From Micrococcales bacterium (GTDB taxonomy: Bacteria; Actinomycetota; Actinomycetes; Actinomycetales; Microbacteriaceae), in the NCBI GenBank assembly GCA_947452985.1, contig CANGEU010000012.1, forward strand, positions 1-48,491: a stretch of DNA of 48,491 nt. Reading direction: 5' to 3'. The notes under the pieces were generated by a model. It searched no databases, was not told the DNA's origin, and saw only the letters and a program-made list of their open reading frames with translations. The translations under genes were made by a program, and so were the position numbers. Numbering within the stretch: position 1 is the first letter of the stretch; each line of letters begins with the position of its first letter. Below are positions 3,759 to 32,214 of the stretch, piece by piece.

Positions 3759-4540
3759 ACCGAAGCTCTGAGAACTTCAGCAAACCCGTCGGTGCCGTCG
3801 ATGTTGCCGTCGCTGAAAACAAACATTGCTTCAACGCCTTCTACCTTTGCGATTCGATCGAGCGCTCGCGGTCCTTCGGCGAATGCCGCGGTTGCCCAGA
3901 CATCTGCAGTAACCAAGTCTTTGGCTAGAACCGAAACCTGAACAAGTTCGCCAGTGGCGGCTTCGACACCCTGAGGGTTCCAGATGTGGGCACCGCGTTC
4001 GGCGCTACCGCTGGTAGCCAAGGCTCGGAACTCGGACCCTTTGAGATTGACTACCGCGAGCACGCCAGCTTCGGGTGAGGCGATGGTAATCGGCTTTGAG
4101 ATTCCAATCTTCCAGTCGACGTCCTCGCTGACAACATCACCAATCCAGACGTCGCCGCCGGCATTCAAGGTGAAATCTGTGACGCCCTCGGTAAGCAGGA
4201 CATCGATGGCAGCCTGGGCGGCCCAGGTCTTTACTAGACCAGAAGGGTCGAAGGTGTGCTGAGGGGTGAAGGCCTTGAAGTAGCCACCAGTGGTTTGCTC
4301 CCACTCTTCGCAAAGGTTCCAAACGTGATCAACCACGGGAGGGCAGGCGGCTACCGAGGTTTCCCCACGAGCCAATTGGCTAAGCGGAGACTCAGGTTTG
4401 TAAAGCGAAAAGATTCGGTCAGCCTCGTGAAGTTTTTCGCAGGCACGATTCAAAAGCGATTCAATTTCTGGGTGATCGGTTCGTCCGCGAAAAACGAATA
4501 CGGTGCCCATGCACTCTTCATTTCTGCGGAATTCGGTCAT
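3755..4540 (-). CDS. apbE: FAD:protein FMN transferase ApbE
   Basis: ApbE transfers FMN from FAD to a Ser/Thr of FMN-binding domains. The 261-residue product shows the family signatures in order: an N-terminal MGTVF, FSLYKPESPLSQLARGE, DPSGLVKTWAAQ (the usual form is KGW, here KTW), FTLNAGGDVW and ATSGSAERGAHIWNP near the C-terminal metal/FAD site. No signal peptide is evident, and export of this enzyme is not obvious from the sequence. Its start overlaps the stop of the preceding FMN-domain gene as TAATG. It is the last gene of the operon that encodes its two likely substrates. Confidence 0.93.
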   Translation of the reverse strand: MTEFRRNEECMGTVFVFRGRTDHPEIESLLNRACEKLHEADRIFSLYKPESPLSQLARGETSVAACPPVVDHVWNLCEEWEQTTGGYFKAFTPQHTFDPSGLVKTWAAQAAIDVLLTEGVTDFTLNAGGDVWIGDVVSEDVDWKIGISKPITIASPEAGVLAVVNLKGSEFRALATSGSAERGAHIWNPQGVEAATGELVQVSVLAKDLVTADVWATAAFAEGPRALDRIAKVEGVEAMFVFSDGNIDGTDGFAEVLRASV

Positions 4541-4992
4541 TAGCCCAGGGTTGATAGCGCTGAGTCGAGAGCCTGCTTGAAGGCATCGGTTGTGTAGGTG
4601 GCTCCACCAACATTGCCGAAGCTGCTGCCATTGGCTTTTACCGCGGCATCCACAAGCATGCTGAATGCCTGATCACGCCCAGCGGTTGCACCGGCTTGTA
4701 CGAGGTCGATTGAGTCGATTTTGCCGGCAGTTTTGGTGACCTTTAGCTGCACCGTGCCGTAGCGGTAGTCAATCGCGTTACCGGTTGCCGACTTGGTTCC
4801 GTTTGGATTGGTCGTGGGGCTGCTTGGGCTCGAACCGAACAGGATGGTGAGAGCATTCGGGTTCAGCGCTAGGTCGATGCCAACGGCACCAACAATCGAA
4901 AGAAGTGCAAGCGCGATTGTGGATGCCAGGTACTTTCGCTTCCCACCAACCGGCTTTTGGAAAGTGTAGAGGTTAGAACTTTGCAAGGGCAT
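4540..4992 (-). CDS. Membrane-anchored FMN-binding domain protein 1
   Basis: A 150-residue protein with one N-terminal membrane helix (about residues 20-42), a short Ser/Thr/Pro linker and a C-terminal FMN_bind domain. The flavinylation motif is GGATYTTDAF, where the Thr of GGAT (about residue 132) is the predicted covalent FMN site. The ATG at 4992 is chosen because it gives a compact N-terminus overlapping the upstream gene by 20 nt. An upstream in-frame start at 5037 would add 15 residues read inside that gene. The domain should lie outside the membrane and carry electrons from the ferric-reductase-like partner. It is a clear tandem paralogue of the next upstream gene. Confidence 0.88.
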   Translation of the reverse strand: MPLQSSNLYTFQKPVGGKRKYLASTIALALLSIVGAVGIDLALNPNALTILFGSSPSSPTTNPNGTKSATGNAIDYRYGTVQLKVTKTAGKIDSIDLVQAGATAGRDQAFSMLVDAAVKANGSSFGNVGGATYTTDAFKQALDSALSTLG

Positions 4993-5539
4993 TGTCCAAT
5001 GCTCGCTTGAATGCGTCGGTGGTGTAGGTAGCTCCACCGAGGTTTCCGAAGTTTGATCCGTTCGAGCTAATTGCTGCTGCCTTCAAACTGGCAAACGCTG
5101 CGCTGCGGCCATTTGTCGCGGTGCAGTTCAAGCAGTCCACGGAGGTAATGTTGCTGCCCTTTTTGGTGACCTTAAGCTGAACGGTTCCAAATCGGTAACC
5201 AACCGAGGAGCTGGTCTGGCTAGTGCTGCTAGCAACCGGCGCTGGGGTTGGGGTCGGGGTTGGGGTAGTTGTTCCACTGCCAGATGAGGCAGAGGTGCTG
5301 GCCTTTGTGGTCTTTTTGGTGGTCTTCTTGGTTACGGTCTTGGTCGAAGTTGTGGTCGTGGTTGAAGTAGTTGGGGTCGGAGTTGGGGTTGCCGTGGTCT
5401 CCGACGAACTCGATGTAGTTCCAGGGGTTAGGGCCACTGGGTACGCGTTAGCACCGGCGGCTGGCAGACCCAGTTTGGCGGTTGCGACTAGGACACCGAT
5501 TCCGGCTAGTCCTACGAAAGTTTTAGTTGCACTTCTCAC
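4973..5539 (-). CDS. Membrane-anchored FMN-binding domain protein 2 with CxxC and low-complexity linker
   Basis: This 188-residue protein begins at a GTG that overlaps the stop of the oxidoreductase gene (GTGA). It has an N-terminal hydrophobic helix, then a long Thr/Pro/Ser/Lys linker with PTPTPT and KKTTKKTT runs. The FMN_bind domain ends in GGATYTTDAF (flavin-acceptor Thr about residue 171). Unlike its neighbour it has DCLNC (Cys136, Cys139) where the paralogue has DLVQAG. A longer frame starting at 5617 lies inside the upstream gene and is not supported. It is expected to be flavinylated by the ApbE of the same operon. Confidence 0.88.
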   Translation of the reverse strand: MRSATKTFVGLAGIGVLVATAKLGLPAAGANAYPVALTPGTTSSSSETTATPTPTPTTSTTTTTSTKTVTKKTTKKTTKASTSASSGSGTTTPTPTPTPAPVASSTSQTSSSVGYRFGTVQLKVTKKGSNITSVDCLNCTATNGRSAAFASLKAAAISSNGSNFGNLGGATYTTDAFKRALDNALAKF

Positions 5540-6954
5540 CAGGCGAACTCCTCTGCGTGAATCTGGCTGGCTGGGGTGCCAACTCTCTTTAGTGACTTCT
5601 CTACTGCGTGGGTCCATGGGCCAGGACCACAGATGTAAACATCCGATTCCGAAATGTGCGGGTTCATTTCGATTAGTCGGGCGTGGTCTGGAATGTCATT
5701 TAGGTGCCCAGGTAGCCATGAGTTTGCGGAGCCGCGCTTGCCGGAAAGTACGTGAAGGCGGAAACCGCGGTGACGGGCTACCTGCTCGATTTCGCTGAGT
5801 AGAGCAGCGTCTTCGTAGCTGCGAACACGGTAGATGATCGTGATGTCACCAGGACGAGCGGCCATTGATTCGGCTAGTGCGCGAATCGGAGGAGCACCAA
5901 CACCAGCACAAATTAGGGTGACCTTTTCCTTGGTGCGACGCTCCTCGGTGAAGACGCCGTAAGGCCCTTCAAGGAACACGCGGGTACCAACCTTTAGGTC
6001 TGGTAACTGTGAAGTGAAGTCACCTCGGTCGCCGATGGTGAAGCGCACGAAGCGGTTGTTTGGGGCAGCTGAGATTGAGAATGGGTGTGGCTTGCCCCAG
6101 TTGGCTTTATTCATAACGCGGAGCATGTAGAACTGTCCAGCCTGACCGCCGAGGCGCTCAAGACCACGACCGGAAACGTAGATCGAAACGGTGTCGCTTG
6201 ACTCGCGAACGATTGAGGAAACTCGAAGTCCTAGCCCAAGGTTCAAAACCAGCGGTGCTAGCGCGCGGTACCAAACCACGTTTAGAGCAACGAATAGGTA
6301 AAGCGAAACCCAGAAGAGGGTCTGCAGTGGCTTGCCGGCAATGTCTGAACCGGTTGAGAACTGGTGAGGAACTGCGGCCAGGATCGAAATGTAAGCGAGA
6401 AGGTGGATTACGTACCAAACTTCGTAGCTGAGCTTCTTGCGAGCGGCGTTGATTGAGGAAACGACGACCGCCAGCATTAGGACGAAGCCAACGGTGGCAC
6501 TCCACATGTCTGGAACCGTGGTGAAAAGGGAAATCATTTCGGCAACAACCGACTTGCCGTCGGCGATTGCAAACTGAATTAGCGACGCAAGAAAGTGTGC
6601 AGTAATCACGTAAAGGATTGGCTTGCCAAGCTTCTTGTGGGCGACTGTCGCTTTGTCGTGACCGTAAAGTTTGTCGATCCATGGCACACGAGCCACTAGC
6701 AGGGTGTGAATTAGTAGCAAATCGGTGCCAATCAGAGCGGTTAGGCGGCTGGTCGACTGAAGGATGTCGTTCAGGTTGCCGAATCTGGCAAGCCCGCCGT
6801 CCATGAAGAACATGGCTGCCACGAACACCACGGTGGCCCAGGCAAAGGTTTCAATAAGGTCTTGAGAGCGCTTTAGCTGCACGAACTTCTTGGCCCCAAG
6901 GCGAACGCGGGTGTTCGGTGGGGTCAAAGTTAGCTGTGGTGCGCTCTGATTCAT
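5536..6954 (-). CDS. Ferric-reductase-like membrane NAD(P)H oxidoreductase
   Basis: A 472-residue protein with about six membrane helices in the first half. Histidines at about 106, 120, 184 and 197 are candidates for ligating haems in a ferric reductase-like transmembrane domain. The C-terminal half is a ferredoxin-NADP reductase module: HPFSIS (290-295) for FAD, GVGAPPIRAL (351-360) for the nicotinamide nucleotide, and a terminal CGPGPW-EEFAW end. It should move electrons from cytosolic NAD(P)H across the membrane. The gene heads an operon with two FMN_bind proteins and ApbE, which suggests these are the outward electron carriers. The final acceptor (iron, quinone or protein thiols) is unknown. 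Confidence 0.9.
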   Translation of the reverse strand: MNQSAPQLTLTPPNTRVRLGAKKFVQLKRSQDLIETFAWATVVFVAAMFFMDGGLARFGNLNDILQSTSRLTALIGTDLLLIHTLLVARVPWIDKLYGHDKATVAHKKLGKPILYVITAHFLASLIQFAIADGKSVVAEMISLFTTVPDMWSATVGFVLMLAVVVSSINAARKKLSYEVWYVIHLLAYISILAAVPHQFSTGSDIAGKPLQTLFWVSLYLFVALNVVWYRALAPLVLNLGLGLRVSSIVRESSDTVSIYVSGRGLERLGGQAGQFYMLRVMNKANWGKPHPFSISAAPNNRFVRFTIGDRGDFTSQLPDLKVGTRVFLEGPYGVFTEERRTKEKVTLICAGVGAPPIRALAESMAARPGDITIIYRVRSYEDAALLSEIEQVARHRGFRLHVLSGKRGSANSWLPGHLNDIPDHARLIEMNPHISESDVYICGPGPWTHAVEKSLKRVGTPASQIHAEEFAW

Positions 6955-7051
6955 AAAACCAAGACTTCCCGACTAACTTGGGAGTTTCCTGTGAGCCACC
7001 TGTGTGAATGCGCTTAATGGTTTTCAGGATTTCAGGCGTAACATTCAAATT

Positions 7052-7909
7052 ATGACCGACCTACCGCTTCGTAGAAGCTTCACAGACAGCCACGGCGTTG
7101 AAATCGTTTTCTGGGAGTGGCCAGTAGCCAGCCCAAAGGCCGTTGTTCAGTTAGTTCACGGTATTGGCGAGCACTCTCGCCGCTACGACCACGTAGCTAA
7201 AAAACTCAATTCGCTTGGCTACGCCGTCTACTCAGACGACCACCGCGGCCACGGCCAAACTGGCAAAGGAATGGTCGCAGCAGGAATCACCAAAAAGCAG
7301 GGGCTGCTAGGCCCAGGCGGCATGGATGCCGTGCTTGGTGAAGTTAGACAACTTACCGAACTGATGAAGAGCGAACACCCAAACACCAAGTTGGTCATGC
7401 TCGGTCACAGCTGGGGTTCCATGCTCGCCCAACGCCTGTTCGATAAGCACTCCAGCGACTTCAGCGCATTCGTGCTCAGCGGTTCATCGCTACTCATCCC
7501 CGGCATCATCAATGGCGGCAAGCTCAACAAGAAGTGGGCTCACCTACCAAACGCCACCGGTGGAGAATGGCTCAGCCGCGATCTCGAGGTTGGTCGCAAG
7601 TTTCGCGAAGACCCGCTGAATTTTGTTGAGTCTTTTGCTCAGGTAGTTGGCTTGGTCGACACCCTGAAACTCATGGGAAAGCCAAAGAAGACCATCAACA
7701 CCAACGTGCCAATTCTCATTCAGGTCGGCAGCGACGACTCGCTCGCCGGTGAGCGTGGAAACGTTTTGCTGGCAAATGCATATCGCAAATTGGGTGTCGA
7801 CGACATCGTGCTATTTATCTACGACGGCGCTCGTCACGAAATTTACAACGAGACCAATAAGGAAGAAGTGCTGAACGATCTAGCCAATTGGCTAGAAGCT
7901 CACATTTAG
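7052..7909 (+). CDS. Alpha/beta hydrolase, monoacylglycerol lipase-like (serine aminopeptidase S33 superfamily)
   Basis: A 285-residue hydrolase of the Hydrolase_4 type that cleaves lipid or ester substrates. It has the oxyanion motif VHGIGEHSRRY, DHRGHGQT, the nucleophile elbow GHSWGS with Ser120, an acid at about Asp229 (GSDDSLAGE) and His262 (GARHEIYNE). The ATG at 7052 gives the normal MTDLPLRRSF start. An upstream frame from 7004 only extends into the gap. No signal peptide is seen, so it should be cytoplasmic. It converges on the acetyltransferase gene with a 4-nt overlap. Confidence 0.87.
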   Translation: MTDLPLRRSFTDSHGVEIVFWEWPVASPKAVVQLVHGIGEHSRRYDHVAKKLNSLGYAVYSDDHRGHGQTGKGMVAAGITKKQGLLGPGGMDAVLGEVRQLTELMKSEHPNTKLVMLGHSWGSMLAQRLFDKHSSDFSAFVLSGSSLLIPGIINGGKLNKKWAHLPNATGGEWLSRDLEVGRKFREDPLNFVESFAQVVGLVDTLKLMGKPKKTINTNVPILIQVGSDDSLAGERGNVLLANAYRKLGVDDIVLFIYDGARHEIYNETNKEEVLNDLANWLEAHI

Positions 7910-8235
7910 TTTCTAGGCGGAAGCTTGCAAGAGGCTACGGCCTCTTCGATTGAGATAGCCAAGAGGTCGTGGGTATCCGGGTGCTTCTCCATGTAGCGAA
8001 CCACATACGAGCAGGTAGGTTCAACGAGCACGTGCTGGTTGGTGCGAATGTCTTCGAAGGCCTCGCGAACCAAAATGGCAGCAAGGTTCTTTCCCTGGTG
8101 GGCTGGGTTCACAAAAGTGTGGTCAAAAACCCAGCGGTCACCCTTAGGTGTGTAGGTGGCTTCGCCAACCTCTTCGCCCTCAAGAAAGATTGCGTAGCGG
8201 TTTCGACCTGCTTGGTGAATTACTTCAGTGCTCAT
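7906..8235 (-). CDS. Small GNAT-type N-acetyltransferase (YjdJ/NATD1-like)
   Basis: A 109-residue protein matching the short GCN5-related family. It has the strand pattern RYAIFLEGEEVGEATYTPKG, the region VFDHTFVNPAHQGKNLAAILV for acetyl-CoA binding, and EPTCSYVVRYMEKHPD, the typical Cys-Tyr end of this family. Substrates of such proteins are mostly unknown. It starts at 8235, sharing a few bases with the divergent methyltransferase reading frame, so one short promoter region must serve both. Confidence 0.85.
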   Translation of the reverse strand: MSTEVIHQAGRNRYAIFLEGEEVGEATYTPKGDRWVFDHTFVNPAHQGKNLAAILVREAFEDIRTNQHVLVEPTCSYVVRYMEKHPDTHDLLAISIEEAVASCKLPPRN

Positions 8236-8254
8236 GTGGGTTAATCTCTTCTAT

Positions 8255-9100
8255 GTGTCCGACTCTAAAAATTTAGTCCTCTTTGGGGACAACCTGGTGC
8301 ATCTCAAACAGATGCCCGATGAATCGGTACAGCTCATTTACATTGATCCGCCGTTCAACACCGGACGCCGCCAGACTCGCGGTAAATCAACCACCACGCG
8401 CACCGAAACCGGTAGCCGGGTAGGTTTCAAAGGGCAGCGCTACGACATCGTGCGCGACACAGTGCTCGGCTACGACGACGAATTCGCCGACTACTGGAGC
8501 TTTCTGGAGCCGAGGCTCGAAGAGGCTTGGCGCCTACTTAACGAGACTGGAACTCTCTACCTTCACCTCGATTACCGGGAAGCTCACTATGCCAAGGTGC
8601 TGCTAGACGCACTCTTTGGCCGCGAAAACTTTTTGAACGAAATCATTTGGGCCTACGACTACGGCGCCAAGTCGAAAAGCCGCTGGCCTGCAAAGCACGA
8701 CACCATCTTGGTTTATGTGAAAAACCCTGACAAGTATTACTTTGATTCAACCGCCGTAGACCGTGAACCTTACATGGCACCTGGTTTGGTTACGCCTGAG
8801 AAGGTTGCCAAGGGCAAGCTGCCAACCGATGTCTGGTGGCACACCATCGTTTCACCAACTGGCACAGAAAAAACCGGTTATCCAACCCAGAAGCCAATTG
8901 GTATTTTGCGTCGCATCATTCAGGCGTCGTCGAAACCGGGCGACCTCGTCCTAGATTTCTTTGGCGGTTCGGGAACCACCGGTTTTGTCGCTGCTCAGTT
9001 AGAACGTCGATTCATCTTGATGGATCGCAACACCGAGGCCATCGAAGTTATGCGAGACCGTTTCGCTTCGGCCGGCGTTCCTGTAGATTTTCGCGACTAA
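8255..9100 (+). CDS. Orphan site-specific DNA methyltransferase (N4/N6 type)
   Basis: The order of motifs is that of a beta-class amino-methyltransferase: the catalytic IDPPFNTG comes first and the AdoMet-binding LDFFGGSGTT sits near the C-terminus. Between them lie a variable insert with TYPTQKPIGILRR just before the AdoMet motif and a basic Arg/Thr-rich stretch right after DPPF. The GTG at 8255 gives VSDSKNLVLFGDN. ATG codons at 8228 and 8234 in the same frame overlap the divergent gene and are possible. No restriction endonuclease lies next to it, so it may be a regulatory or solitary methylase. Its last 53 nt overlap the end of thiP. Confidence 0.88.
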   Translation: MSDSKNLVLFGDNLVHLKQMPDESVQLIYIDPPFNTGRRQTRGKSTTTRTETGSRVGFKGQRYDIVRDTVLGYDDEFADYWSFLEPRLEEAWRLLNETGTLYLHLDYREAHYAKVLLDALFGRENFLNEIIWAYDYGAKSKSRWPAKHDTILVYVKNPDKYYFDSTAVDREPYMAPGLVTPEKVAKGKLPTDVWWHTIVSPTGTEKTGYPTQKPIGILRRIIQASSKPGDLVLDFFGGSGTTGFVAAQLERRFILMDRNTEAIEVMRDRFASAGVPVDFRD

Positions 9101-10655
9101 TCGCAAACACAACGGCAAAGGTCAACCCAATAATTAGCGTTGCTGCCGCCATCGCCATGCCGTAGTTCTGCCCGCCCGGTTTCGTGATCAGCGAATAAAG
9201 CACGGTCGGAAGAGTTGCCTGGTCTCCGTAAGCGAGCAAGCTGGCTGCGCCGAATTCACCAAGCGAAACCAGCGCCGCAAAAGCCGCCGCTGTGTAAACG
9301 CTGAAGCGAATCGCCGGAAGTTCGATAAACCACCAAATCTGCCAACGGTTGGCACCGGCTGTTGAGGCCGCTTCGTAGTGGCTGCGCTCAACTGAAACGA
9401 GTGCGGGATAAATCAAACGAATCACAATTGGCACCGACATCACCGATTGGATCAGCGGTGTCACCATCCAGGTTTCGCGGAGCGGAAGTGGGTAACCACC
9501 AAACGTGACCAAGTAACCGAAACCGAGCACCACGGTTGAAATACCCAGAGGCAACAGGAACATCACATCGAGAATGCGGTTGACCAGGGTTTGCTTAAAG
9601 TTGTTTGCGGGTAGGGCTAGCAGGTAAGAAACCACAACACCAATCACCATGGCAATCGCAGCCGAGATCACCATGTTTCGAAGGCTGTTGCCCGCGGCAT
9701 CCAGAACGCTTAGGTTCAAGATGTTCCTAGTTCCACGACCGCCAAGGTTCATAAAGTTGCCAACGAATCCTGCCCCTTCGGTGAAAGTCTTGTAAACAAT
9801 CATCGACATTGGCGCGACAATCAAAATTGCGAAAACGGGGAACGTGAGTAGCGATGCAAGCCAGTCTCGTCTGTCTAGGTTTTTTACCTCGCCGTCGTGT
9901 TCCCCAACCTCGATTCCAATGTTCGCTCGTCCGCCAGTCTGGGTGATGCCGAAAGCAATCACACTAAGCATGGTTTGAATCAAGGCAAGTGCCGAAGCTT
10001 TTGGAAGGTCGAGCAAAGTATTGGCGGCGGTAGCTATTTCGGTTTCAAGCGAATGAACCTGACCGCCACCGAGCACCAAAATCACTCCGTAGCTGGCGCT
10101 GCAGTAGAGGAATGTCGACGCTGCTGCAGAAATCAGTGCCGGCTTTAGTTGCGGAAGCGAAATGCTCCAAACCGTTCGGAATCGACCAGCTCCCGAAAGG
10201 GCGGCAGCCTCCTCGGTTTGCAAATCTAGCGACATCCAAAAACTTCCAATGGTTCGAACCGCAAGCGAGTAGTTCAAGAACACGTGAGCCGTGATGATCC
10301 AAAACACCGGGTTCGACCAAAGGTGACCGGCATCTCTAAAAATGGTGAAACCGGTTGCCACCACAATCGTTGGCAACATAAACGGAATGGTTATCAGCGA
10401 GCGAAGAGCGCGTTGACCCCAAAACCTTTTTCGGTAAAGCAAGTAGGCGCCTGGAAGTGCCAACACCAAGGTGACCAGTGTGGAAAGCAGCGCCTGCCAA
10501 ACGGTGAACCAGGTGATCGACCAGTCGCGAACGTTGAGTAAATGAAGAACCCAATCACCTTGGAACCCCCGCGCCAAAATACTTGTAAGCGGCCAGACGA
10601 ATAGGACTCCCAGAAACAGTAGTGGGAGAAACCAACCGACCAGTCGTTTACTCAA
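9048..10655 (-). CDS. thiP: Thiamine ABC transporter permease, fused two-domain (ThiP-like)
   Basis: A 535-residue membrane protein made of two binding-protein-dependent permease domains, each with about six helices. They are joined by a polar linker (GEHDGEVKNLDRRDW). The second domain shows the EAA-type loop YEAASTAGANRWQIWWFIELP, and the first has EEAAALSGAGRFRTVWSISLP. The TTG start at 10655 overlaps the end of thiB by 8 nt (TTGAGTAA), a translational coupling arrangement. An earlier frame start lies inside thiB. With the TPP riboswitch upstream of thiB, thiamine or TPP is the likely substrate. No ThiQ ATPase gene follows, so an ATPase must come from elsewhere. Confidence 0.9.
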   Translation of the reverse strand: MSKRLVGWFLPLLFLGVLFVWPLTSILARGFQGDWVLHLLNVRDWSITWFTVWQALLSTLVTLVLALPGAYLLYRKRFWGQRALRSLITIPFMLPTIVVATGFTIFRDAGHLWSNPVFWIITAHVFLNYSLAVRTIGSFWMSLDLQTEEAAALSGAGRFRTVWSISLPQLKPALISAAASTFLYCSASYGVILVLGGGQVHSLETEIATAANTLLDLPKASALALIQTMLSVIAFGITQTGGRANIGIEVGEHDGEVKNLDRRDWLASLLTFPVFAILIVAPMSMIVYKTFTEGAGFVGNFMNLGGRGTRNILNLSVLDAAGNSLRNMVISAAIAMVIGVVVSYLLALPANNFKQTLVNRILDVMFLLPLGISTVVLGFGYLVTFGGYPLPLRETWMVTPLIQSVMSVPIVIRLIYPALVSVERSHYEAASTAGANRWQIWWFIELPAIRFSVYTAAAFAALVSLGEFGAASLLAYGDQATLPTVLYSLITKPGGQNYGMAMAAATLIIGLTFAVVFAISRENLQERRPKRNGLA

Positions 10656-11616
10656 ACAGTTTGCTCCAGGCAGTAATCCAGCCCTTGCGACCGGCCTGAA
10701 CATCGAGCTGCTCACCAACCAGAGTGGTTGCGGCCGGAGCGAACTTCTCCCAGTCAATTGGCAAATCCAAACCTCTGGTCATTGGGTAGACATACATTGA
10801 CTCCGGCAGGGCTTTTTGAAAGTCCTGAGAGAGCATGAATTTCACCAAGGCGGCAGCGCCCTTCGAGTTCTTGGCACCCGCCAAAACTCCTGCGTACTCG
10901 GTTTGGCGGTAGCAGTCGTTCAAGATGCTAGCGGTTTGGCTCTCGCCATTATCGCGCACCTCGTAGGCGGGCGAACTCGAATAACTAAGCACGATCGGGT
11001 AAGGCCCGTGCCCGCTGGATCCGGAGAAGTCGGTGAAGTAGGCATCTTCCCAACCGGCAGCCACCTTCACGCCATTCGCCTTCAACCTCGTCCAGTAGGT
11101 GAGGTAGCCATTTTCACCAAACTTCGCAACCGTGGTAGCAAGGAAAGCCATGCCGGTCGACGAACTAGCTGGGTTTTCAACTACGGTCAGGTTCTTGTAA
11201 TTCGAGTCAGTAAGTTGAGAAATATCGCTAGGAACTGGAATGCCTTTCGCGGCAAACCAGTCTTTGTCGTAGTTCATACAGACATCGCCGAAGTCGATCG
11301 GCTGAACATCGCCTTCAACTATGTTGTTCTCTTTCGCCAACCCAATCAGGGTGTTGTCGATACCAAACACGGCGTCACCAATTGGTTGGTCTTTGGTAAG
11401 AATCAACTTGTTGGTCATGGCGCCGGCGTCGCCAACTTTAACAACCTTTAGTTGGTAGCCGCTCTCGCTCTCAAACTTGTGAATCAATTCGTCGCTGATC
11501 GCAAAGGAATCGTGGGTCACTAAGACCACGGTCTTGGAATCGGTTACCGGTGAACAGCCGGCCAAAGCCAGGCTGGAAATCACTGCCACAACAGCAGCCT
11601 TGAATAGTTTCTGCAC
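10648..11616 (-). CDS. thiB: Thiamine ABC transporter substrate-binding lipoprotein
   Basis: An exported 322-residue binding protein with a lipoprotein signal (LALAGC, Cys21). The mature part matches ThiB: VVLVTHDSFAISDELIHKFE, GDAVFGIDNTLIGLA, a VENPASSSTGMAFL loop, and YPIVLSYSSSPAYEV. It should capture thiamine outside the membrane for ThiP. The GTG at 11616 is preceded by an AAGGAGG ribosome site 8 nt away and directly opens the signal peptide. The 28 residues upstream in the same frame are riboswitch sequence. Expression is predicted to be repressed by TPP. Confidence 0.92.
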   Translation of the reverse strand: MQKLFKAAVVAVISSLALAGCSPVTDSKTVVLVTHDSFAISDELIHKFESESGYQLKVVKVGDAGAMTNKLILTKDQPIGDAVFGIDNTLIGLAKENNIVEGDVQPIDFGDVCMNYDKDWFAAKGIPVPSDISQLTDSNYKNLTVVENPASSSTGMAFLATTVAKFGENGYLTYWTRLKANGVKVAAGWEDAYFTDFSGSSGHGPYPIVLSYSSSPAYEVRDNGESQTASILNDCYRQTEYAGVLAGAKNSKGAAALVKFMLSQDFQKALPESMYVYPMTRGLDLPIDWEKFAPAATTLVGEQLDVQAGRKGWITAWSKLFE

Positions 11617-11620
11617 TTTC

Positions 11621-11644
11621 GTGCCCTCCTTTTTAGTAGGGCAC
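11621..11644 (-). promoter_or_regulatory. Shine-Dalgarno-masking hairpin of thiB
   Basis: On the minus-strand RNA, GUGCCCU (11644-11638) can pair with AGGGCAC (11627-11621), closing the AAGGAGG ribosome site into loop and stem. The 5' arm shares three bases with the 3' side of riboswitch P1. The GCAC of the 3' arm can instead pair with GUGC that contains the start codon, through a GAAA loop (11624-11613). These pairings exclude one another, as expected for a translational switch. Confidence 0.6.
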
Positions 11645-11743
11645 GGGTTAGAGGTCCTCCCTGCGCTGGCATTACCCAGATCAGGTTTGACGGTCGACAA
11701 CTTGGTAGTTGTCCTCTCAGTCCGGTAACACCGAACTCCCGTG
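11642..11743 (-). ncRNA. TPP (THI-box) riboswitch
   Basis: The leader carries the conserved THI elements in order on the minus strand: P1 5' side CACGGG (11743-11738), CUGAGA (11720-11715), and the core UGAUCUGGGUAAUGCCAGCG with GCAGGGAG (down to 11657), closed by CCCGUG (11647-11642). It binds thiamine pyrophosphate and controls thiB and thiP. The platform is short and lies on the thiB ribosome site, so control of translation is more likely than of termination. Confidence 0.95.
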
Positions 11744-11753
11744 TATCTCTAGA

Positions 11754-13433
11754 TTAGTGCGCTGACGAAGCTGCCGCTTCAGCTGCAGCCGACTTCGTGC
11801 GAAGTGGCTGCGCCTTGATGAAGAACGACATTGCGAAAGCAATTGCAACTACTGCTGCCGCTGTAATGAATACAGTTACAGCCGAGTCGGCAAAGCCCAT
11901 TAGGAACGGGCGAGCCAGGCGTGGGTCTAGGTGAGTCAAGAACGATGAGTCACCATTTAGCTTGTCACCCAACGCAGCCGGGTTAGCAGCTGCATCCTTT
12001 AGGAACACTACGTTCGGGTTGTCGGCTTTGTACTTGCCCGACATCGCACCAGCGATGTATTCCTTGGCGGCGTCGGTCATGCCGTTCTGAACTTCTGGAA
12101 CCTTGGTTGCCGACTTGATGGCGTCTGGTAGTCGGTTGAACAGAATCGAGATGAACACTGCAACACCGAGAGTTCCACCCATCTGGCGGAAGAACATCGA
12201 CGATGAAGTAGCAACACCGATGTCCTGTGGTGAAACAGCGTTCTGGGCAGCCAGAGTAAGGGTCTGCATTAGCTGACCAAGGCCGGCACCGATGATGATC
12301 ATCGAGATCGACATGACCCAAATTGGGGTGTTGTACTGGAAGCTGAACATCGAGATGTAACCGAGAAGAAGCATTCCGGTACCGGTGATCATGAAGATCT
12401 TGTACTTGCCGGTCTTGCCGGTGATGGTTCCAGAGACGATTGAGGCGGTCATCATTCCAAGCACCATTGGCAACATTAGGAAGCCAGACTCGGTTGGGCT
12501 AACACCCTTAACAATCTGAAGAACTAGAGGAATGGTCATCATTCCACCGAACATGCCGATACCCACGATTACACCGAGGATGGTGACCGAGGTGAATACC
12601 TTCGACTTGAACAATGAGAGCGGAAGGATAGCTTCGTGCTTAGCAATGCGCTCGGCAAGGATGAAGGCAACGATACCGACGACGCCAATTACGTAGCAGC
12701 TGATTGATTCGGTGCTGGTCCAGCCCCAAGTGCGACCGTTTTCAGCAACCAAAAGGATAGGAACAACTGCCATGATGATGGTGATCGCGCCTAGCCAGTC
12801 GATGCGGTGCTTCACTGGGGTGTGAGGAACGTGAAGGAACTTCCAAACTAGGAAAAGAGCCAAGGCGCCAATTGGCACGTTGATTAGGAAGATCCACTTC
12901 CAACCGGCGATGCCTAGGATCATTCCGGCGTCGGCGAATAGACCACCGACAACTGGGCCTAGAACGCTTGAGGTTGCGAAAACAGCGAGGGTGTAACCCT
13001 GGTAGCGAGCGCGCTCGCGTGGAGGAACGATGTCGCTGAGCACGGTAATGGCTAGCGAGAACAAACCACCGGCACCAATACCCTGAACTGCACGCCAACC
13101 AGCAAGCTCAAGCATCGAGCTTGACAGCGACGACAGCGCTGAACCGGCGACGAAAATCGCGATCGCAATGATGAATAGGCGACGACGTCCGAAGATGTCA
13201 CCGAGCTTTCCATAAATTGGGGTCGAAATCGTCGAAGTGATTAGGTAGGCGGTGGTTACCCAAGCCTGAAGTTCAAGACCGTGAAGGTCATCGGCGATGG
13301 TGCGCATCGCGGTACCAACAACGCTCTGGTCTAGAGCCGACAGGAACATACCTGCCATTAGGCCAACTAGTACCAGCAGAATTTCGCGGTGTGACATCTC
13401 GCCAGGAACGGCGACTTTTTCATTTTTTGACAT
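11754..13433 (-). CDS. DHA2-family multidrug efflux MFS transporter (EmrB/QacA type)
   Basis: A 559-residue protein with 14 predicted membrane helices, the DHA2 pattern. Early motifs are LDQSVVGTAMRTIADDL (the motif D1-like region with the membrane Asp) and GKLGDIFGRRRLF (motif A). Helix 5 carries the antiporter motif C-like GPVVGGLFAD. A roughly 80-residue polar insert before the last helix (VPEVQNGMTDAAKEYIAGAM) lies outside, as in many actinobacterial members. It probably exports drugs or other toxic compounds using the proton gradient. GGAAGAAG precedes the ATG at 13433. Its short gap to the divergent peptidase gene must hold both promoters. Confidence 0.9.
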   Translation of the reverse strand: MSKNEKVAVPGEMSHREILLVLVGLMAGMFLSALDQSVVGTAMRTIADDLHGLELQAWVTTAYLITSTISTPIYGKLGDIFGRRRLFIIAIAIFVAGSALSSLSSSMLELAGWRAVQGIGAGGLFSLAITVLSDIVPPRERARYQGYTLAVFATSSVLGPVVGGLFADAGMILGIAGWKWIFLINVPIGALALFLVWKFLHVPHTPVKHRIDWLGAITIIMAVVPILLVAENGRTWGWTSTESISCYVIGVVGIVAFILAERIAKHEAILPLSLFKSKVFTSVTILGVIVGIGMFGGMMTIPLVLQIVKGVSPTESGFLMLPMVLGMMTASIVSGTITGKTGKYKIFMITGTGMLLLGYISMFSFQYNTPIWVMSISMIIIGAGLGQLMQTLTLAAQNAVSPQDIGVATSSSMFFRQMGGTLGVAVFISILFNRLPDAIKSATKVPEVQNGMTDAAKEYIAGAMSGKYKADNPNVVFLKDAAANPAALGDKLNGDSSFLTHLDPRLARPFLMGFADSAVTVFITAAAVVAIAFAMSFFIKAQPLRTKSAAAEAAASSAH

Positions 13434-13469
13434 TAAAACTTCTTCCTACACGCAGGTAGTCTGGGACAT

Positions 13470-14183
13470 GTGAAAACCCGCAACTCAAAAACTAACCAAC
13501 GCGTTGCGCGTATTTATTCCGTGAGAGCGCTGGCTCTCGTTCTAGCACTAAGTCTAACCGCAGTGACTTCAGTTGCGGCTAGCGCTGTGGTCGCCATTGA
13601 CACAGCAACTTCTTACCAGGTCGTTGTCAACAAGACCAGACCGCTCAGACCCGTAACCTATCACCCAAGCGACTTGGTCAGGGTGCCAAAATATAACCCA
13701 TACTCCAGAATTGTTCGCCGAGACGTTTCGGCTGCAATCGTGCTACTTGGAAACGACATGAAGGTTGCCGGGCAAGGTACTTTGATTGTTCAAAGCGGTT
13801 ACCGCAGCTACGGTTCTCAAACCACTATTCATAAGGCGAAAGTTCGCGCGCTTGGCAAGGTTCACGGCGAAAAGTTGGCCGCTCGCCCTGGTTACTCCGA
13901 GCACCAAACCGGTTTGGCAGTCGATTTTGCTGCTCGAGGTGTTTCGACGTTGCAAGTAAGTTTCGCCAAGACCAAGGCTGGCATTTGGTTGGCTGCCAAT
14001 GCTTACCGCTACGGGTTTGTACTTCGTTACCCGTCTGGCAAAACCTCGATCACTGGCTACAGTTTCGAACCTTGGCACTTTAGGTATGTTGGCGTGCAGG
14101 TTGCCACGGCGATGCATGACCAAGCGATTACCACCTTGGAAGAGTTTTACTCACTTCCGGCAGCGCCAAACTACTTGAACTAG
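13470..14183 (+). CDS. Secreted M15B D,D-carboxypeptidase (VanY family)
   Basis: A 237-residue exported zinc peptidase expected to trim D-Ala from peptidoglycan stems. An N-terminal hydrophobic segment (about residues 18-43) with ASA sites acts as a signal or anchor. Zinc and catalytic residues are visible as SEHQTGLAVDF (His145, Asp152) and EPWHFRYVG (Glu200, His203), with SGYRSYGSQ upstream. The GTG at 13470 is taken because a basic N-terminus KTRNSKTNQRVAR directly precedes the hydrophobic core. It converges with pgm, overlapping by 4 nt. Confidence 0.9.
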   Translation: MKTRNSKTNQRVARIYSVRALALVLALSLTAVTSVAASAVVAIDTATSYQVVVNKTRPLRPVTYHPSDLVRVPKYNPYSRIVRRDVSAAIVLLGNDMKVAGQGTLIVQSGYRSYGSQTTIHKAKVRALGKVHGEKLAARPGYSEHQTGLAVDFAARGVSTLQVSFAKTKAGIWLAANAYRYGFVLRYPSGKTSITGYSFEPWHFRYVGVQVATAMHDQAITTLEEFYSLPAAPNYLN

Positions 14184-26286: not shown

Positions 26287-26359
26287 GCGTTTGTAGCTCA
26301 ACGGATAGAGCATCTGACTACGGATCAGAAGGTTGGGGGTTCGAGTCCCTCCAAGCGCA
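26287..26359 (+). tRNA. tRNA-Arg(ACG)
   Basis: The acceptor GCGTTTG (26287-26293) pairs with CAAGCGC (26352-26358), with one G-T pair, and the discriminator is A. The anticodon arm TCTGA-CTACGGA-TCAGA reads ACG, and the T arm is GGGGGTTCGAGTCCCTC. The 3' half from the anticodon loop onward is repeated exactly 1638 bp downstream, so this gene is an integration site. A TAAACT box at 26253-26258 may be its -10. Confidence 0.97.
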
Positions 26360-26360
26360 C
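26317..26360 (+). repeat. attL-like direct repeat (tRNA-Arg 3' half)
   Basis: These 44 bp run from the anticodon loop to just past the 3' end of the tRNA and are identical to 27955-27998. This is the usual core position for tyrosine-recombinase integration into tRNA genes. Confidence 0.85.
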
Positions 26361-26369
26361 AAAGCTAAG

Positions 26370-26393
26370 GCCCTGTATTTACAGGGCTTTTTG
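26370..26393 (+). terminator. Terminator after tRNA-Arg
   Basis: GCCCTGT (26370-26376) pairs with ACAGGGC (26381-26387) around ATTT and is followed by TTTTTG. It differs from the terminator after the right-hand repeat (28001-28037), so each tRNA 3' end came with its own terminator. Confidence 0.85.
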
Positions 26394-26409
26394 CGTTTCT
26401 GCTTGGGAA

Positions 26410-26439
26410 TCGACTTTATTAGAACATGGAAAAAGTCGA
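26410..26439. repeat. Inverted repeat at the left end of the islet
   Basis: TCGACTTT (26410-26417) and AAAGTCGA (26432-26439) form an 8-bp perfect inverted repeat with a 14-nt spacer and no T-run. It lies in the roughly 190-nt gene-free stretch between the tRNA terminator and the metalloprotease gene. It could be a protein-binding site, but nothing shows which. Confidence 0.4.
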
Positions 26440-26529
26440 ACTGAATTCCTAGGCACTCAATACCGGATACTTTCAAGCTAACAGTCTGGCAAAGGGTATT
26501 GAAGTAAACAAAATCCAAATGCGAATTTC

Positions 26530-26556
26530 TTGTCAAAGAGTATGTAAAGTTATGAT
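26530..26556 (+). promoter_or_regulatory. Possible promoter of the islet metalloprotease
   Basis: TTGTCA (26530-26535) and TATGAT (26551-26556) resemble -35 and -10 boxes but are only 15 nt apart, so the match is tentative. A GGGGGAA ribosome site follows just before the ATG at 26587. Confidence 0.4.
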
Positions 26557-26586
26557 TTCTGGTTTGAAAGCATCATTGGGGGAACA

Positions 26587-27576
26587 ATGAACATCAAGGT
26601 ATTGTCGCTATTAGCAATTTCAGGACTTTTGCCCATTTGGTCAGCCACTCCAGCAAATGCATTTGCGAATTCGGCCTGTTCACCGGACGGTTTGTATTCC
26701 TTGGCTGATGTCGATTCGGGAATCACTGTATGTCAAGATTCTTCCATCGCAATTGCGTTGGGTGCAGGCTCTCAACAATTAGAAGTACCTCAGAGTGGCG
26801 CCGTAATGTCATTTCTTTATGCGAGCCCAGTTGACACAACTATTAGCCATGTTTCAGTGTTTACAGATGATCAGCAAAAAGTGGGACTGTTGATTGATGA
26901 CGTGGCATTTGGTGCAACGTTAGAGGTCGGATCAACAGGTCCGATTACAACCCTGTCTTCTTTTCCTGGCTGCAGCACCTCAAGTTATAATCTCCTGCCG
27001 ATGCATTGGATCAAAACTTATGTTTGGTACTACAACTCCACCAATTCACCAAGTTCATCTGCACTCTCAGAATTGCAGTCGTCAATTTCACTCTGGACAT
27101 CGGGGGTTAACCGGTGCACTGGGCAGACCTATTCGAGTACATTCGCCTCAAGATACGCTGGCGCTACGGGCCTAAGCCCAAACTTCTCCGTCACGACAAG
27201 TAATGGAATATCGACCATTGGTTGTGCTTTGCCAGACGGTAATAATGTGATCGGGTGGTTGAATCCGACTGGCACATCCTCTGTTCTCGCAGTGACATGC
27301 ACTTGGCCATCCGGAAGCCCTGGGATTCTCGCGGGTGAATCCGACATCTTTGTCAACAAAAACTATTCGTTCTACTTTGGGTCAAGCACAGCGGGCTGCA
27401 CAGGCTCTCTGTATGACTTCAGGGAAATTGTTACGCATGAGTTTGGACATGTTGTTGGCCTGGCTCATTCGTCACAGCTAGACAGACAAATTATGAAACC
27501 AAACTTCAGCACGTGTGAAACTAGTGAACGATTACTTGCACCTGGCGACATTAGTGGACTTCAAGTCAGGTACTAA
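26587..27576 (+). CDS. Secreted matrixin-like zinc metalloprotease
   Basis: A 329-residue exported protein with a signal peptide ending near ATPANA (about residue 25). Near the C-terminus is the metzincin zinc motif HEFGHVVGLAH (His284, Glu285, His288, His294), and a Met-turn follows with IMKPN (Met303), as in peptidase M10/matrixin. The middle part is rich in Ser, Thr and Gly with several Cys and no clear domain. It has a strong GGGGGAAC ribosome site. Codons ending in A/T are more frequent than in neighbours, fitting an acquired gene. It lies inside the tRNA-Arg islet, 2 nt upstream of a lipoprotein gene. The substrate protein is unknown. Confidence 0.85.
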   Translation: MNIKVLSLLAISGLLPIWSATPANAFANSACSPDGLYSLADVDSGITVCQDSSIAIALGAGSQQLEVPQSGAVMSFLYASPVDTTISHVSVFTDDQQKVGLLIDDVAFGATLEVGSTGPITTLSSFPGCSTSSYNLLPMHWIKTYVWYYNSTNSPSSSALSELQSSISLWTSGVNRCTGQTYSSTFASRYAGATGLSPNFSVTTSNGISTIGCALPDGNNVIGWLNPTGTSSVLAVTCTWPSGSPGILAGESDIFVNKNYSFYFGSSTAGCTGSLYDFREIVTHEFGHVVGLAHSSQLDRQIMKPNFSTCETSERLLAPGDISGLQVRY

Positions 27577-27578
27577 AT

Positions 27579-27932
27579 ATGAAGTCTTCATCTAGAAATA
27601 AGTGCACAGGCGTATTTTTGCCTCTAGTTCTGTTATTCGCTGTTTCTGGGTGCAGCAATTTAGAACCCGAGGCAGAACCAACTCAATCGAGCCCGAGTGC
27701 CACTTGTATAAGTCGAGGCACCTTGCACGAGGAGCATTTAGAAGATTCACCAAAAGCAGTATGCGCTGGACACGAAGTCAAAATTGTACTCAAATCTGGC
27801 CAGACAATAGCAATTCCAGAAGTCGGAGCCTCTGGGGCGACCAGTTGCATTGACTCTGCAACTGACGGGGCAAGCTCTTGCTTCACGATCTTCACCGACG
27901 ATGGTGGATTTCCTCATGTGTCCAGAGGCTGA
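27579..27932 (+). CDS. Small lipoprotein of the islet, unknown function
   Basis: A 117-residue protein with a lipoprotein signal (LLFAVSGC) followed by an acidic Ser/Pro stretch and about 75 residues with five Cys and many beta-type residues (KIVLKSGQTIAIPEVG, CFTIFTDDGG). No known family is recognised. It begins 2 nt after the metalloprotease stop, so the two are cotranscribed. A role as partner, inhibitor or anchor of the protease is possible but only inferred from position. Confidence 0.65.
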   Translation: MKSSSRNKCTGVFLPLVLLFAVSGCSNLEPEAEPTQSSPSATCISRGTLHEEHLEDSPKAVCAGHEVKIVLKSGQTIAIPEVGASGATSCIDSATDGASSCFTIFTDDGGFPHVSRG

Positions 27933-27954
27933 GAAACAAAGATAATACAACATC

Positions 27955-27998
27955 ACTACGGATCAGAAGGTTGGGGGTTCGAGTCCCTCCAAGCGCAC
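27955..27998 (+). repeat. attR-like direct repeat (orphan 3' half of tRNA-Arg)
   Basis: An exact 44-bp copy of tRNA-Arg from the anticodon loop to the 3' end, without any 5' half, so it cannot fold as a tRNA. A further CATC match just upstream is separated by a 2-nt gap. The stretch from 27933 to 28113 holds otherwise only the terminator below and the leader of the next gene. Confidence 0.85.
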
Positions 27999-28000
27999 GA

Positions 28001-28037
28001 AAACCCCGCAGGATCTCAAGTCTCGCGGGGTTTTTAC
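28001..28037 (+). terminator. Terminator after the orphan tRNA half
   Basis: AAACCCCGC (28001-28009) pairs with GCGGGGTTT (28025-28033) and is followed by a T-run. It directly follows the right repeat and is probably the original terminator of tRNA-Arg before the insertion. Confidence 0.85.
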
Positions 28038-28113
28038 TTTAATCTCTATTTGCCCAAGACCAACAAGTAACTCATTGCCCATAAACTTGGGAAGGTCACT
28101 GTTAGGAGACCCT

Positions 28114-30138
28114 GTGTCGGTTAAGAAATCTTTTGTGTCTGTAATTGCAATTTTTAGCATGCTGCTCGGTTTGGCAGTTACTTCCTTGCCAGCTCAGGCA
28201 GCTGTCACCAGCCCACTTGTCTCGGGCACCCCAGCGGTTGGTTCGACACTCACGGTGAATCCAGGTACTTGGGATGCAACACCTACCCCGACCAAGCAGT
28301 GGTTCAGAAACGGCCTAGCAATTCGTGGCGCGACATCAGTTTCTTACACACTTACTGCCAGTGATTACCTTCAAGAAATCACGGTTGCAGTTATGGGCAA
28401 ACGATCCAAGAAAGATGCAGTGGAGTTCGCACCTCTTTTGCCATTGATCGCTGCTGGCCCAGACACTCCCGCCGCAAATGGAACAACCGTTGCGCAACTC
28501 ACGCAAGGGGTGACCGGGGGCCGATGCGCACTCATTCCAAACGGCACTGTTCAATGCTCTCTTGTTAGCAGAAGCTTAATTGGTGTGACTGGCGCAACCG
28601 AAATTGCGGGCATTACTAATGCGGTAGAAATCGCCGGGTCGGAGCGTTACAACTGCGTGCTTATCCTCGACGGCACCGTTACTTGCTGGGGTTCAGGTTG
28701 GGCTGGTGGGCCAAAGGGTAACTTCAACCCTTCAGGCAAAGCATTAAAGATTGCCGGTTTAACGGGTGTAAGAGCTATCTCGGTTGGCTCAACCGTCTGT
28801 GCTCTGTTGAAGGATGGCTCAGAGAAGTGCTTCGGCGACGATGAGCGCTCGCAGCTCGGCTCAATTAAGCCACTAATTTATCGAGCTGAAACAGCATTTC
28901 CGTACACCAAGACTCCTCAGTTGATTCCAGGCGTAACCAATGTCATTCAGATTTCAAGTGGACCAGAAAATAACTGCGCACTCACTGCAAGCGGGCAGGC
29001 GGAATGTTGGGGTAGCAATAGCTCGGGACAACTAGGCTACAAACCGACTAACACCACAGCCAAGATGCCAGTGGTTGTTAAAGGACTCTCAAAAGTGCTC
29101 CAAGTTAAATCAAACTATGGAGAAACATGCGTGGTGCTTGAAGCAGGGGGAATAACCTGCTGGGGTGCTCGCAACATAGGCGGTGCCAGCTACGCAAAGC
29201 ACAATGTGCAACTCGTCGGAAGCTCTGCAGTTGTTCAGATGGAAAGCTCCGCTGATTCAAGTTGCGCACTCATGGCTGATGCAACCGAACAGTGTTGGGG
29301 AAATGACGTTGACGGCTGGCTTGGTGGAGTGGGCTGGGACTCAGTAAACAACCCTGACGACACTTATGACTGGGGCAACGTGCCACCATTCACCCTGGAT
29401 TGGCAGGAGGGAGTGTTGCAAATCTCTTCGCCAATCGGTTGCGCAGTCTTGCTCAGCGGCTCGGCATACTGCAGAGGTTCCGGTGGTACTACTTCGTACC
29501 TCGCAAGACGTTCACAAACGCCTGCCGATCTATTCGGTGTAGCAAATCCAGCGGCTATCCCAATGGTTAGCATCAGCGGCATCGAACAGGGTGCAAGTAC
29601 CCTCACAGGATCGATAAATGGGCTTCCCGAAAATGCAACGAGCGTTTCTTACAACTGGGGCATGGATAGAAATGTGGTTCAAACCAGTGACCTTAACGCT
29701 GGCGACCCGTCGTCCGATGCTAAGAGTTTGGTCATCGGAGCAGATGGACTCTGCGTCGGCTCGGTCATCTATTTCCAGGCGGTTATACGAACCCCTGGGT
29801 ACCGTGCATTGGTTGCAACTGCAAAAGCCGTGGTTCCGAAAGTCTCTGTGCCAATCTCTGCAACTCCGACGATAAGTTCGTCGACAGGTGTCTTTGCCGC
29901 TGAATCGGTATTGACGGCTGTTCCAGGTGTTTGGACTGAAGGCGCGACCTTCAAGTACGTGTGGAAGCGTGATGGTGTAGCGATCGCCAAAGCCACGAAG
30001 TCCACATACAAGTTGGTTGCTGCTGATTCGGGTCATGCTATTTCAGTGAGCGTGACCGGTTCGGCAGATTACAGCTGCTCTGGCACACCGTATTTCCCGG
30101 TAATCAAAACATCAGATTCAGTTTCAGTTACGCGCTAG
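28114..30138 (+). CDS. Secreted RCC1-like repeat protein with Ig-like ends
   Basis: A 674-residue exported protein. The GTG at 28114 follows TAGGAGA and opens a signal peptide ending in LPAQA. A first Ig-like unit (GTPAVGSTLTVNPGTW, KQWFRNGLAI) is followed by six or seven RCC1/BNR-type propeller repeats. Most repeats have two Cys, for example NCVLILDGTVTCWGSG, VCALLKDGSEKCFGDD, NCALTASGQAECWGSN and SCALMADATEQCWGND. A second Ig-like unit (ESVLTAVPGVWTEG, YVWKRDGVAIAKA) ends the protein. No anchor motif is seen. It lies between an orphan tRNA 3' half and a tRNA 5' fragment. The ligand is unknown. Confidence 0.8.
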   Translation: MSVKKSFVSVIAIFSMLLGLAVTSLPAQAAVTSPLVSGTPAVGSTLTVNPGTWDATPTPTKQWFRNGLAIRGATSVSYTLTASDYLQEITVAVMGKRSKKDAVEFAPLLPLIAAGPDTPAANGTTVAQLTQGVTGGRCALIPNGTVQCSLVSRSLIGVTGATEIAGITNAVEIAGSERYNCVLILDGTVTCWGSGWAGGPKGNFNPSGKALKIAGLTGVRAISVGSTVCALLKDGSEKCFGDDERSQLGSIKPLIYRAETAFPYTKTPQLIPGVTNVIQISSGPENNCALTASGQAECWGSNSSGQLGYKPTNTTAKMPVVVKGLSKVLQVKSNYGETCVVLEAGGITCWGARNIGGASYAKHNVQLVGSSAVVQMESSADSSCALMADATEQCWGNDVDGWLGGVGWDSVNNPDDTYDWGNVPPFTLDWQEGVLQISSPIGCAVLLSGSAYCRGSGGTTSYLARRSQTPADLFGVANPAAIPMVSISGIEQGASTLTGSINGLPENATSVSYNWGMDRNVVQTSDLNAGDPSSDAKSLVIGADGLCVGSVIYFQAVIRTPGYRALVATAKAVVPKVSVPISATPTISSSTGVFAAESVLTAVPGVWTEGATFKYVWKRDGVAIAKATKSTYKLVAADSGHAISVSVTGSADYSCSGTPYFPVIKTSDSVSVTR

Positions 30139-32125: not shown

Positions 32126-32214
32126 GGAAGCGTGCCGGAGCGGCCGAACGGAACAGTCTTGAAAACTGTCGTAGTTAATAGCTACCGTGGGTTCAAATCC
32201 CACCGCTTCCTCCA
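32126..32214 (+). tRNA. tRNA-Ser(TGA)
   Basis: The acceptor GGAAGCG (32126-32132) pairs with CGCTTCC (32204-32210). The anticodon arm ACAGT-CTTGAAA-ACTGT reads TGA, a long variable arm is present, and the T arm is GGGTTCAAATCCC. CCA is encoded at 32212-32214, unlike the other two tRNAs here, and the discriminator is T rather than the usual G of serine tRNAs. Confidence 0.95.

Follow-up and report, generated by a model that had tools for sequence, protein, structure and literature searches.

The 48,491-nucleotide stretch analysed here (NCBI GenBank assembly GCA_947452985.1, contig CANGEU010000012.1, positions 1 to 48,491; hereafter the window) comes from a Micrococcales bacterium of the Rhodoluna/Aquiluna group and carries a 1.6-kb islet at its tRNA-Arg(ACG) gene. 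That the islet was inserted site-specifically, and at a hotspot, is close to certain. With rather more confidence than doubt, we take it to be a recently acquired non-autonomous gene cassette, similar to a cis-mobilizable element (CIME) or to the tRNA-targeted cassettes of additive genomic islands. Comparison of 67 genomes of the window's genus, numbered with the window genome as G000, established the anatomy of the islet, its empty site, and the hotspot; it also showed that sister species have islands with an integrase at the same core, and that two further units without an integrase are shared by different species.

ARAGORN identifies a single intact tRNA-Arg(ACG) in the window, the target gene (26287..26360; this and all features of the islet lie on the forward strand). 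Its 3′ half from the anticodon loop onward (26317..26360) constitutes the left core, on the attL side, and is matched at 44/44 positions by the right core, on the attR side (27955..27998), a displaced 3′ half only; the flanking bases differ immediately outside the repeat on both sides. This exact repeat had been described in the first-pass annotation and was confirmed, as was, by folding, the claim that each copy is followed by a terminator of its own. The left end of the islet (26362..26432), recognized by its similarity to the left end of an island in G001, includes one terminator (26367-26390), whereas the original chromosomal tRNA terminator now lies at 27999..28036; homologues of the latter directly follow the intact tRNA in G073, G062, G033, and contig C97 of G032. 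The fold energies of the two are −17.3 and −21.2 kcal/mol (z −3.6 and −5.6), and a simple terminator scan listed the left one only. No third core copy was found in the 1.42-Mb genome assembly (92% complete) with a 33-nt part of the core at up to three mismatches, and a reversed-pattern control gave 0. By reasoning rather than calculation, the probability that an exact 44-bp match within 48 kb arose by chance is negligible.

Two genes are the sole non-overlapping open reading frames (ORFs) of note between the cores. The ORF list and Pfam bear out the earlier description of the interior as a secreted metalloprotease gene and a lipoprotein gene alone, and the absence of a recombinase agrees with a Pfam integrase search of the whole genome, which gave zero matches on the window contig. 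The first gene (26587..27576) encodes a secreted M10 (matrixin-like) metalloprotease of 329 amino acids, which scores 35 bits against PF00413 (Peptidase_M10; cut-off 24) and contains the sequence HEFGHVVGLAH, which we take to be the M10 motif. The second (27579..27932) encodes a small lipoprotein of 117 amino acids with a lipobox-like VSGC, read by eye, and with no Pfam family above the cut-off. Together they probably supply an exported protease and a surface lipoprotein that use or modify extracellular peptides. The GC content at third codon positions (GC3) of the two genes is 0.445 and 0.415, compared with 0.55–0.61 in six of the seven other genes measured; the seventh, an RCC1-repeat gene, has 0.49. 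This odd GC3 and the undecayed right core speak for a recent arrival. The right core remains identical at 44/44 positions though the tRNA does not need it, and the corresponding copies in G020, G023, G017, and G079 have decayed.

The insertion at tRNA-Arg(ACG) proposed in the first-pass annotation is supported by empty sites in two sister species, each with a single tRNA and the right-hand terminator. In G073 the EamA, HAD, SOUL, and tRNA-Arg genes follow one another in window order (88%, 66%, and 72% amino acid identity for the three proteins), and the tRNA runs directly into the homologue of the window's right-hand terminator; the joined window flanks differ from this empty site at approximately six of 137 columns. 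The empty site of G062 is also colinear with the window. Three further pairs of empty and occupied sites were found: G016/G070 (flanks 94% and 89% identical; a 14.2-kb island with integrase), G010/G006 (92.5% on the left and 79 bp at 100% on the right; a 7.4-kb island without integrase), and G033/G019 (99.1% over 1812 bp, for the right border only, the G019 contig being 3.8 kb long). The features of a tRNA island are thus present: an intact tRNA with a displaced 3′ fragment, an empty site (in the other species G073 and G062), and variable cargo in relatives. The presence of both genes in all relatives, the finding named beforehand as contrary to insertion, was not observed: empty sites exist, the lipoprotein was found in the window's own genome only (1/67), and the protease in 3/67, namely this genome and two distant relatives with 26–28% identity. 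That the second tRNA half stems from local duplication or chance beside two resident genes is hardly credible. Nothing except the repeat itself favors it; empty sites with the same left neighbor and right terminator contradict it, the lipoprotein did not turn up in any of the remaining 66 genomes of the genus, and the left end of the islet resembles that of a mobile island.

Elsewhere, the protease has matches of 26–36% identity in eight other genomes among 297 of the order, and two matches on Streptomyces plasmids; no donor of the cargo could be named from either set. No tRNA lies inside the 3.7–4.0 kb around the protease relatives in G063 and G011.

In the mechanism that we propose, a tyrosine integrase would insert the cassette into tRNA-Arg(ACG) at the core in the anticodon loop. 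The tRNA would be made whole again by the 3′ half and terminator that the cassette brings with it, and the old half with the old terminator would be displaced 1.6 kb downstream. The window cassette presumably landed by the same reaction as the other islands of the hotspot, with another hotspot element supplying the integrase in trans, or integrating in tandem as a helper that was subsequently lost.

The extent of this hotspot is considerable. The exact 44-mer was found in 69 stretches from Rhodoluna, Aquiluna, and metagenome-assembled genomes (MAGs) of Microbacteriaceae, Micrococcales, and Actinomycetota, plus three titled Auritidibacter. The 38-nt tRNA 3′ half (≤3 mismatches) is present in 48 of the 67 genus genomes, 13 of which (G000, G001, G005, G006, G007, G011, G064, G065, G067, G070, G071, G082, and G083) possess at least two copies on one contig and strand. 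An integrase lies between the copies in four of these 13 (G001, G005, G007, and G070) and upstream of the array, on the same contig, in G082; it was not found in the remaining eight, by Pfam search for G000, by a local profile alone for G083, and by both for the other six. More decayed copies occur in G020, G023, G079, G017, and G059, and an integrase is also found beside tRNA-Arg(ACG) in G077, G075 (a 254-residue frame), and G032 (cut by the contig end). These counts are lower bounds because contigs are often short and at most 20 kb was examined per stretch. Different cargo at the same locus, which had been named as confirming evidence, was found: in sister species this tRNA hosts either tyrosine-integrase islands of 10–14 kb, with prim-pol genes in the two checked (G001 and G005), or integrase-less units of 0.6–10 kb.

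Among the larger of these units is one of 10.4 kb in G083 (L221, G083:C1:1336000-1354000, oriented 3387-13783), which lacks an integrase and, by Pfam, encodes a near-complete heme pathway: Aminotran_3 (likely HemL), ALAD, HemD, HemC, GlutR, UroD, an amine oxidoreductase (likely HemY), a chlorite-dismutase family protein (likely HemQ), and ferrochelatase. HemC is found in only 8/67 genus genomes. The 7.4-kb integrase-less unit of G006 (L038, oriented 4075-11454) is situated between exact tRNA-Arg cores and contains genes for β-oxidation, namely acyl-CoA oxidase, thiolase, 3-hydroxyacyl-CoA dehydrogenase, and enoyl-CoA hydratase.

Two other kinds of integrase-less unit are shared between species. 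The first is a 6,420-bp module with ABC transporter and two-component genes, named by eye from their sequences (L037 9375-15794 and L226 7494-13913, oriented), which is 99.84% identical between G005 and G082, genomes whose Xer loci are 69–71% identical. In G082 it has cores at both borders and stands in tandem with an integrase-bearing element; G005 has lost the left core, and its module is fused to an integrase-bearing island. The second is a 0.6-kb SnoaL cassette in G020, G023, G064, and G065, with 77–93% identity against 64–75% at two Xer loci; G011 has a further copy, not near any clear core, with 87–92% identity to three of these four. Flanks 0.9–1.5 kb in length outside the shared units gave no match at E ≤ 1e-3 in the five pairs tested (of seven, G011 aside). 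In a systematic count of stretches of at least 150 bp, three of 643 had each end no more than 15 bp from a core in one locus or more; pairs involving G023 were missed because its right core is truncated. Since two units exceed background identity and have borders at or beside cores, integrase-less units at this site do move. The same borders bear on the proposal that the islet entered by homologous recombination with a relative already carrying it, with no site-specific event in this lineage. Homologous exchange is frequent in bacteria, and the tRNA, core, and terminator provide approximately 120 bp of near-identity between species; however, the proposal merely shifts the question to the donor, and in the five pairs of shared units the homology ends at or beside the cores and excludes the flanks. 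We consider it improbable.

Lambda-type integrases provide the model for arm-type sites. An 11-bp repeat, ATTCCGTTTAG, occurs in island ends as a pair, 11 bp apart; it was first noticed by eye and then scanned for with up to two mismatches in each unit. A total of 698,757 bases from 58 loci contained nine pairs, all beside cores, and the reversed sequences 0; a further 64 loci yielded two pairs, which are the G006 and G070 sites again. Six pairs lie on the right (G001, G005, G006, G070, G082, and G083) and three on the left (G001, G005, and G070), the latter all in integrase-bearing islands. Three integrase-bearing islands have pairs at both ends, and three larger integrase-less units a pair on the right only; the 7.4-kb unit of G006 has one on its right and none on its left. 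Eight right ends also have in common a conserved stretch, approximately 63–126 bp long and 70–100% identical, to the left of the core. Four of these belong to elements with an integrase (G001, G005, G070, and one island in G082) and three to elements without (G006, G083, and the second G082 unit); the eighth belongs to an element that a contig end cuts off (G019). The islands of G007, G077, and G075 contain no arm-like pairs, and in the tree their integrases fall outside the clade of the pair-bearing islands or on a long branch. Judged by position and by what is known of lambda-type integrases, the ATTCCGTTTAG pairs are candidate arm-type integrase sites.

Over 71 bp, the left end of the window islet and that of the integrase-bearing G001 island share 83% identity (E 1.6e-14); this similarity ends approximately 10 bp short of the G001 left arm-like pair. 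The right end contains the core-proximal motif AATACAACATC (27935..27954), which resembles GTAxTGCAACATA of other elements; its score in a position-specific scoring matrix is attained by a fraction of approximately 97,000 window positions that ranges from 1e-5 over 20 nt to 4e-5 over 14 nt. In a gapped, right-anchored test against seven arms, 0, 0, 1, 2, 6, 23, and 38 of 4000 random positions were equally good. Such ends may also be what is left of a larger element: a full G001-like island would have integrated and then, through internal deletions, been stripped of its integrase, replication genes, and both arms, so that only two cargo genes were left between the old att sites. The end of the left homology just before the G001 arm-like pair, the survival of core-proximal similarity only on the right, and the absence of pairs fit this history, and decay of an integrative and conjugative element or an integrative and mobilizable element is an origin of CIMEs given in the consulted sections of PMC5704250. 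It requires two large deletions, neither of which touched the two cargo genes, the ends of the islet, or the right core, which is undecayed. Moreover, the site commonly has small units without an integrase, two kinds of which are shared between species as units. We regard decay as a real possibility, though short of probable, and because of these common and shared units we lean toward arrival of the islet without an integrase rather than decay in place.

A Pfam search of the window's own genome revealed three tyrosine recombinases, two of which are Xer-like by length and place in the tree. The third (C1:133887-135092, in region G000:C1:133684-135092) begins approximately 130 bp from tRNA-Arg(TCT) and is 21–25% identical, over long alignments, to the tRNA-Arg(ACG) integrases with which it gave any match; as a helper for the tRNA-Arg(ACG) site it was rejected on sequence, given the different tRNA and the low identity. 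The integrase with a matching attachment sequence for which the first-pass annotation proposed a search was found in islands of sister species; in the own genome the sole non-Xer-like integrase sits at another tRNA. A phage origin of the islet was likewise rejected, since the 39-nt core and the 23-nt right junction are absent from IMG/VR contigs (exact matches only) and no viral relatives of the cargo genes were found. Relatives of the G001 integrase in IMG/VR have 24–30% identity (12 loci), and among the 20 matches listed of 2530 phage records the identity is 27–33%.

Several observations weigh against a recently acquired, helper-moved cassette. The islet occurs in no other genome compared, and its own transfer is thus something that we infer; nor was an integrase for tRNA-Arg(ACG) found in the 92% complete genome. 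The scan (up to two mismatches per unit) detected no arm-like pair at either end, which suggests that excision by the known type of integrase would now be impossible; with both pairs missing, the islet is probably stranded now, unless the core is sufficient by itself or an integrase of another family acts on it. A full right arm of approximately 126 bp had to be rejected for the window, where the similarity is core-proximal (approximately 20 bp). Even this match is short, and its support is uneven across the arms compared: G011b, an end without an arm, scores nearly equally at 20 nt (3e-5 against 1e-5 for the window), and over 34 nt the window end does not surpass G065b. The left-end similarity concerns one genome only, G001. 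At the empty site, G073 lacks the window's 1033-residue gene between HAD and SOUL, and the content of the left flank differs. As to the shared units, the G005 and G082 contigs (apparently CANGGL010000001.1 and CANCKM010000018.1) derive from isolates named Jr-25may17-10 and JR-MC-G-240519-118, which may mean one water body, and the SnoaL identity of G020 and G011 (79.6%) is not above background (80.6% and 78.1%). Rhodanese cassettes (G071, G079, and G011) are only about 2–7 points above background and do not support recent transfer. Finally, nearly all compared genomes are drafts, many of them MAGs, so that binning or repeat-joining errors are possible, and G064 has 8% contamination.

The islet is bordered by the RCC1-repeat protein gene (28075-30138). 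RCC1-like matches near the site in other species are mostly weak (24–48% identity; 80% in G029), and one lies inside a 2.5-kb unit of G067. A tRNA-Ser(TGA) gene (32126-32214) is located downstream of tRNA-Arg(ACG) in the window, and the matching stretch lies upstream in several relatives (L055, L056, and L059), which indicates that the region has been rearranged. In the rhodanese cassettes of G071 (L222, 183-908) and G079 (L233, 2962-4162, both oriented) two parts occur in opposite order, which looks like cassette reshuffling.

Integron gene cassettes form arrays separated by a recurring recombination site. The single-gene units of approximately 0.6 kb at tRNA-Arg(ACG) are similarly arrayed with a recurring recombination site between them, although here that site is a tRNA 3′ half with its terminator. 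A bolder interpretation would make the whole locus in Rhodoluna/Aquiluna integron-like, with single-gene cassettes that start with a terminator, end in the 44-bp tRNA half, and have neither integrase nor arm sites. An integrase working in trans, and needing nothing but the core, would gain, lose, and rearrange them behind the tRNA, and the islet would be one such cassette of two genes; this we find rather doubtful. A second comparison is with the tycheposons, the original study of which reportedly concerned Prochlorococcus. What links the locus to them is cargo lodged at tRNA genes, together with tyrosine recombinases, in streamlined planktonic bacteria. The window contig contains no recombinase, and 1.6 kb is below the 4–200 kb that the consulted part of PMC10872708 gives for tycheposons, which employ tyrosine recombinases.

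The best mechanistic frame for the islet as a cassette is the CIME, which the consulted sections of PMC5704250 define as lacking genes for integration and transfer and retaining attL and attR. The islet comparably consists of two cargo ORFs, with no integrase on its contig. Its cores are exact, and it differs in having no arm-like pair on either side. A CIME would be mobilized in cis once a helper had integrated in tandem with it; G082 shows such a tandem with an integrase-bearing element and G005 a fused one, neither being seen for the window. tRNA-targeted cassettes are also described, in the parts consulted, for the additive flexible genomic islands of 'Ca. Actinomarinales' (PMC7771536) and for fGI-2 of 'Ca. 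Methylopumilus' (PMC10872708), in the latter with sizes of 330 bp to 42 kb, a variability that the units at tRNA-Arg(ACG) appear to share. As far as these parts go, our locus is distinguished by tRNA-Arg(ACG) itself, integrase islands with the same core, mapped arm-like pairs, and two core-bordered shared units, some of which may hold in those taxa as well. The pattern as such is already described in other taxa, and what is added, relative to the sections consulted, is the map of candidate arm sites, the core-bordered shared units, and the large metabolic cargo. No published account of this locus in Rhodoluna/Aquiluna was found by title and abstract, subscription journals lying outside the scope, and the consulted parts of PMC10872708 and PMC6106888 contain no description of it.

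By what routes streamlined aquatic bacteria acquire new functions is still an open question, and at this site one answer can be traced. The locus combines a single tRNA and its mapped core with candidate arm sites, islands that have an integrase, and units that have none; the cargo of the latter extends from a single gene to most of the heme pathway (G083) or to genes for β-oxidation (G006). If helper integrases do move core-only cassettes, a tRNA gene would serve these bacteria as a cassette platform without an integron.
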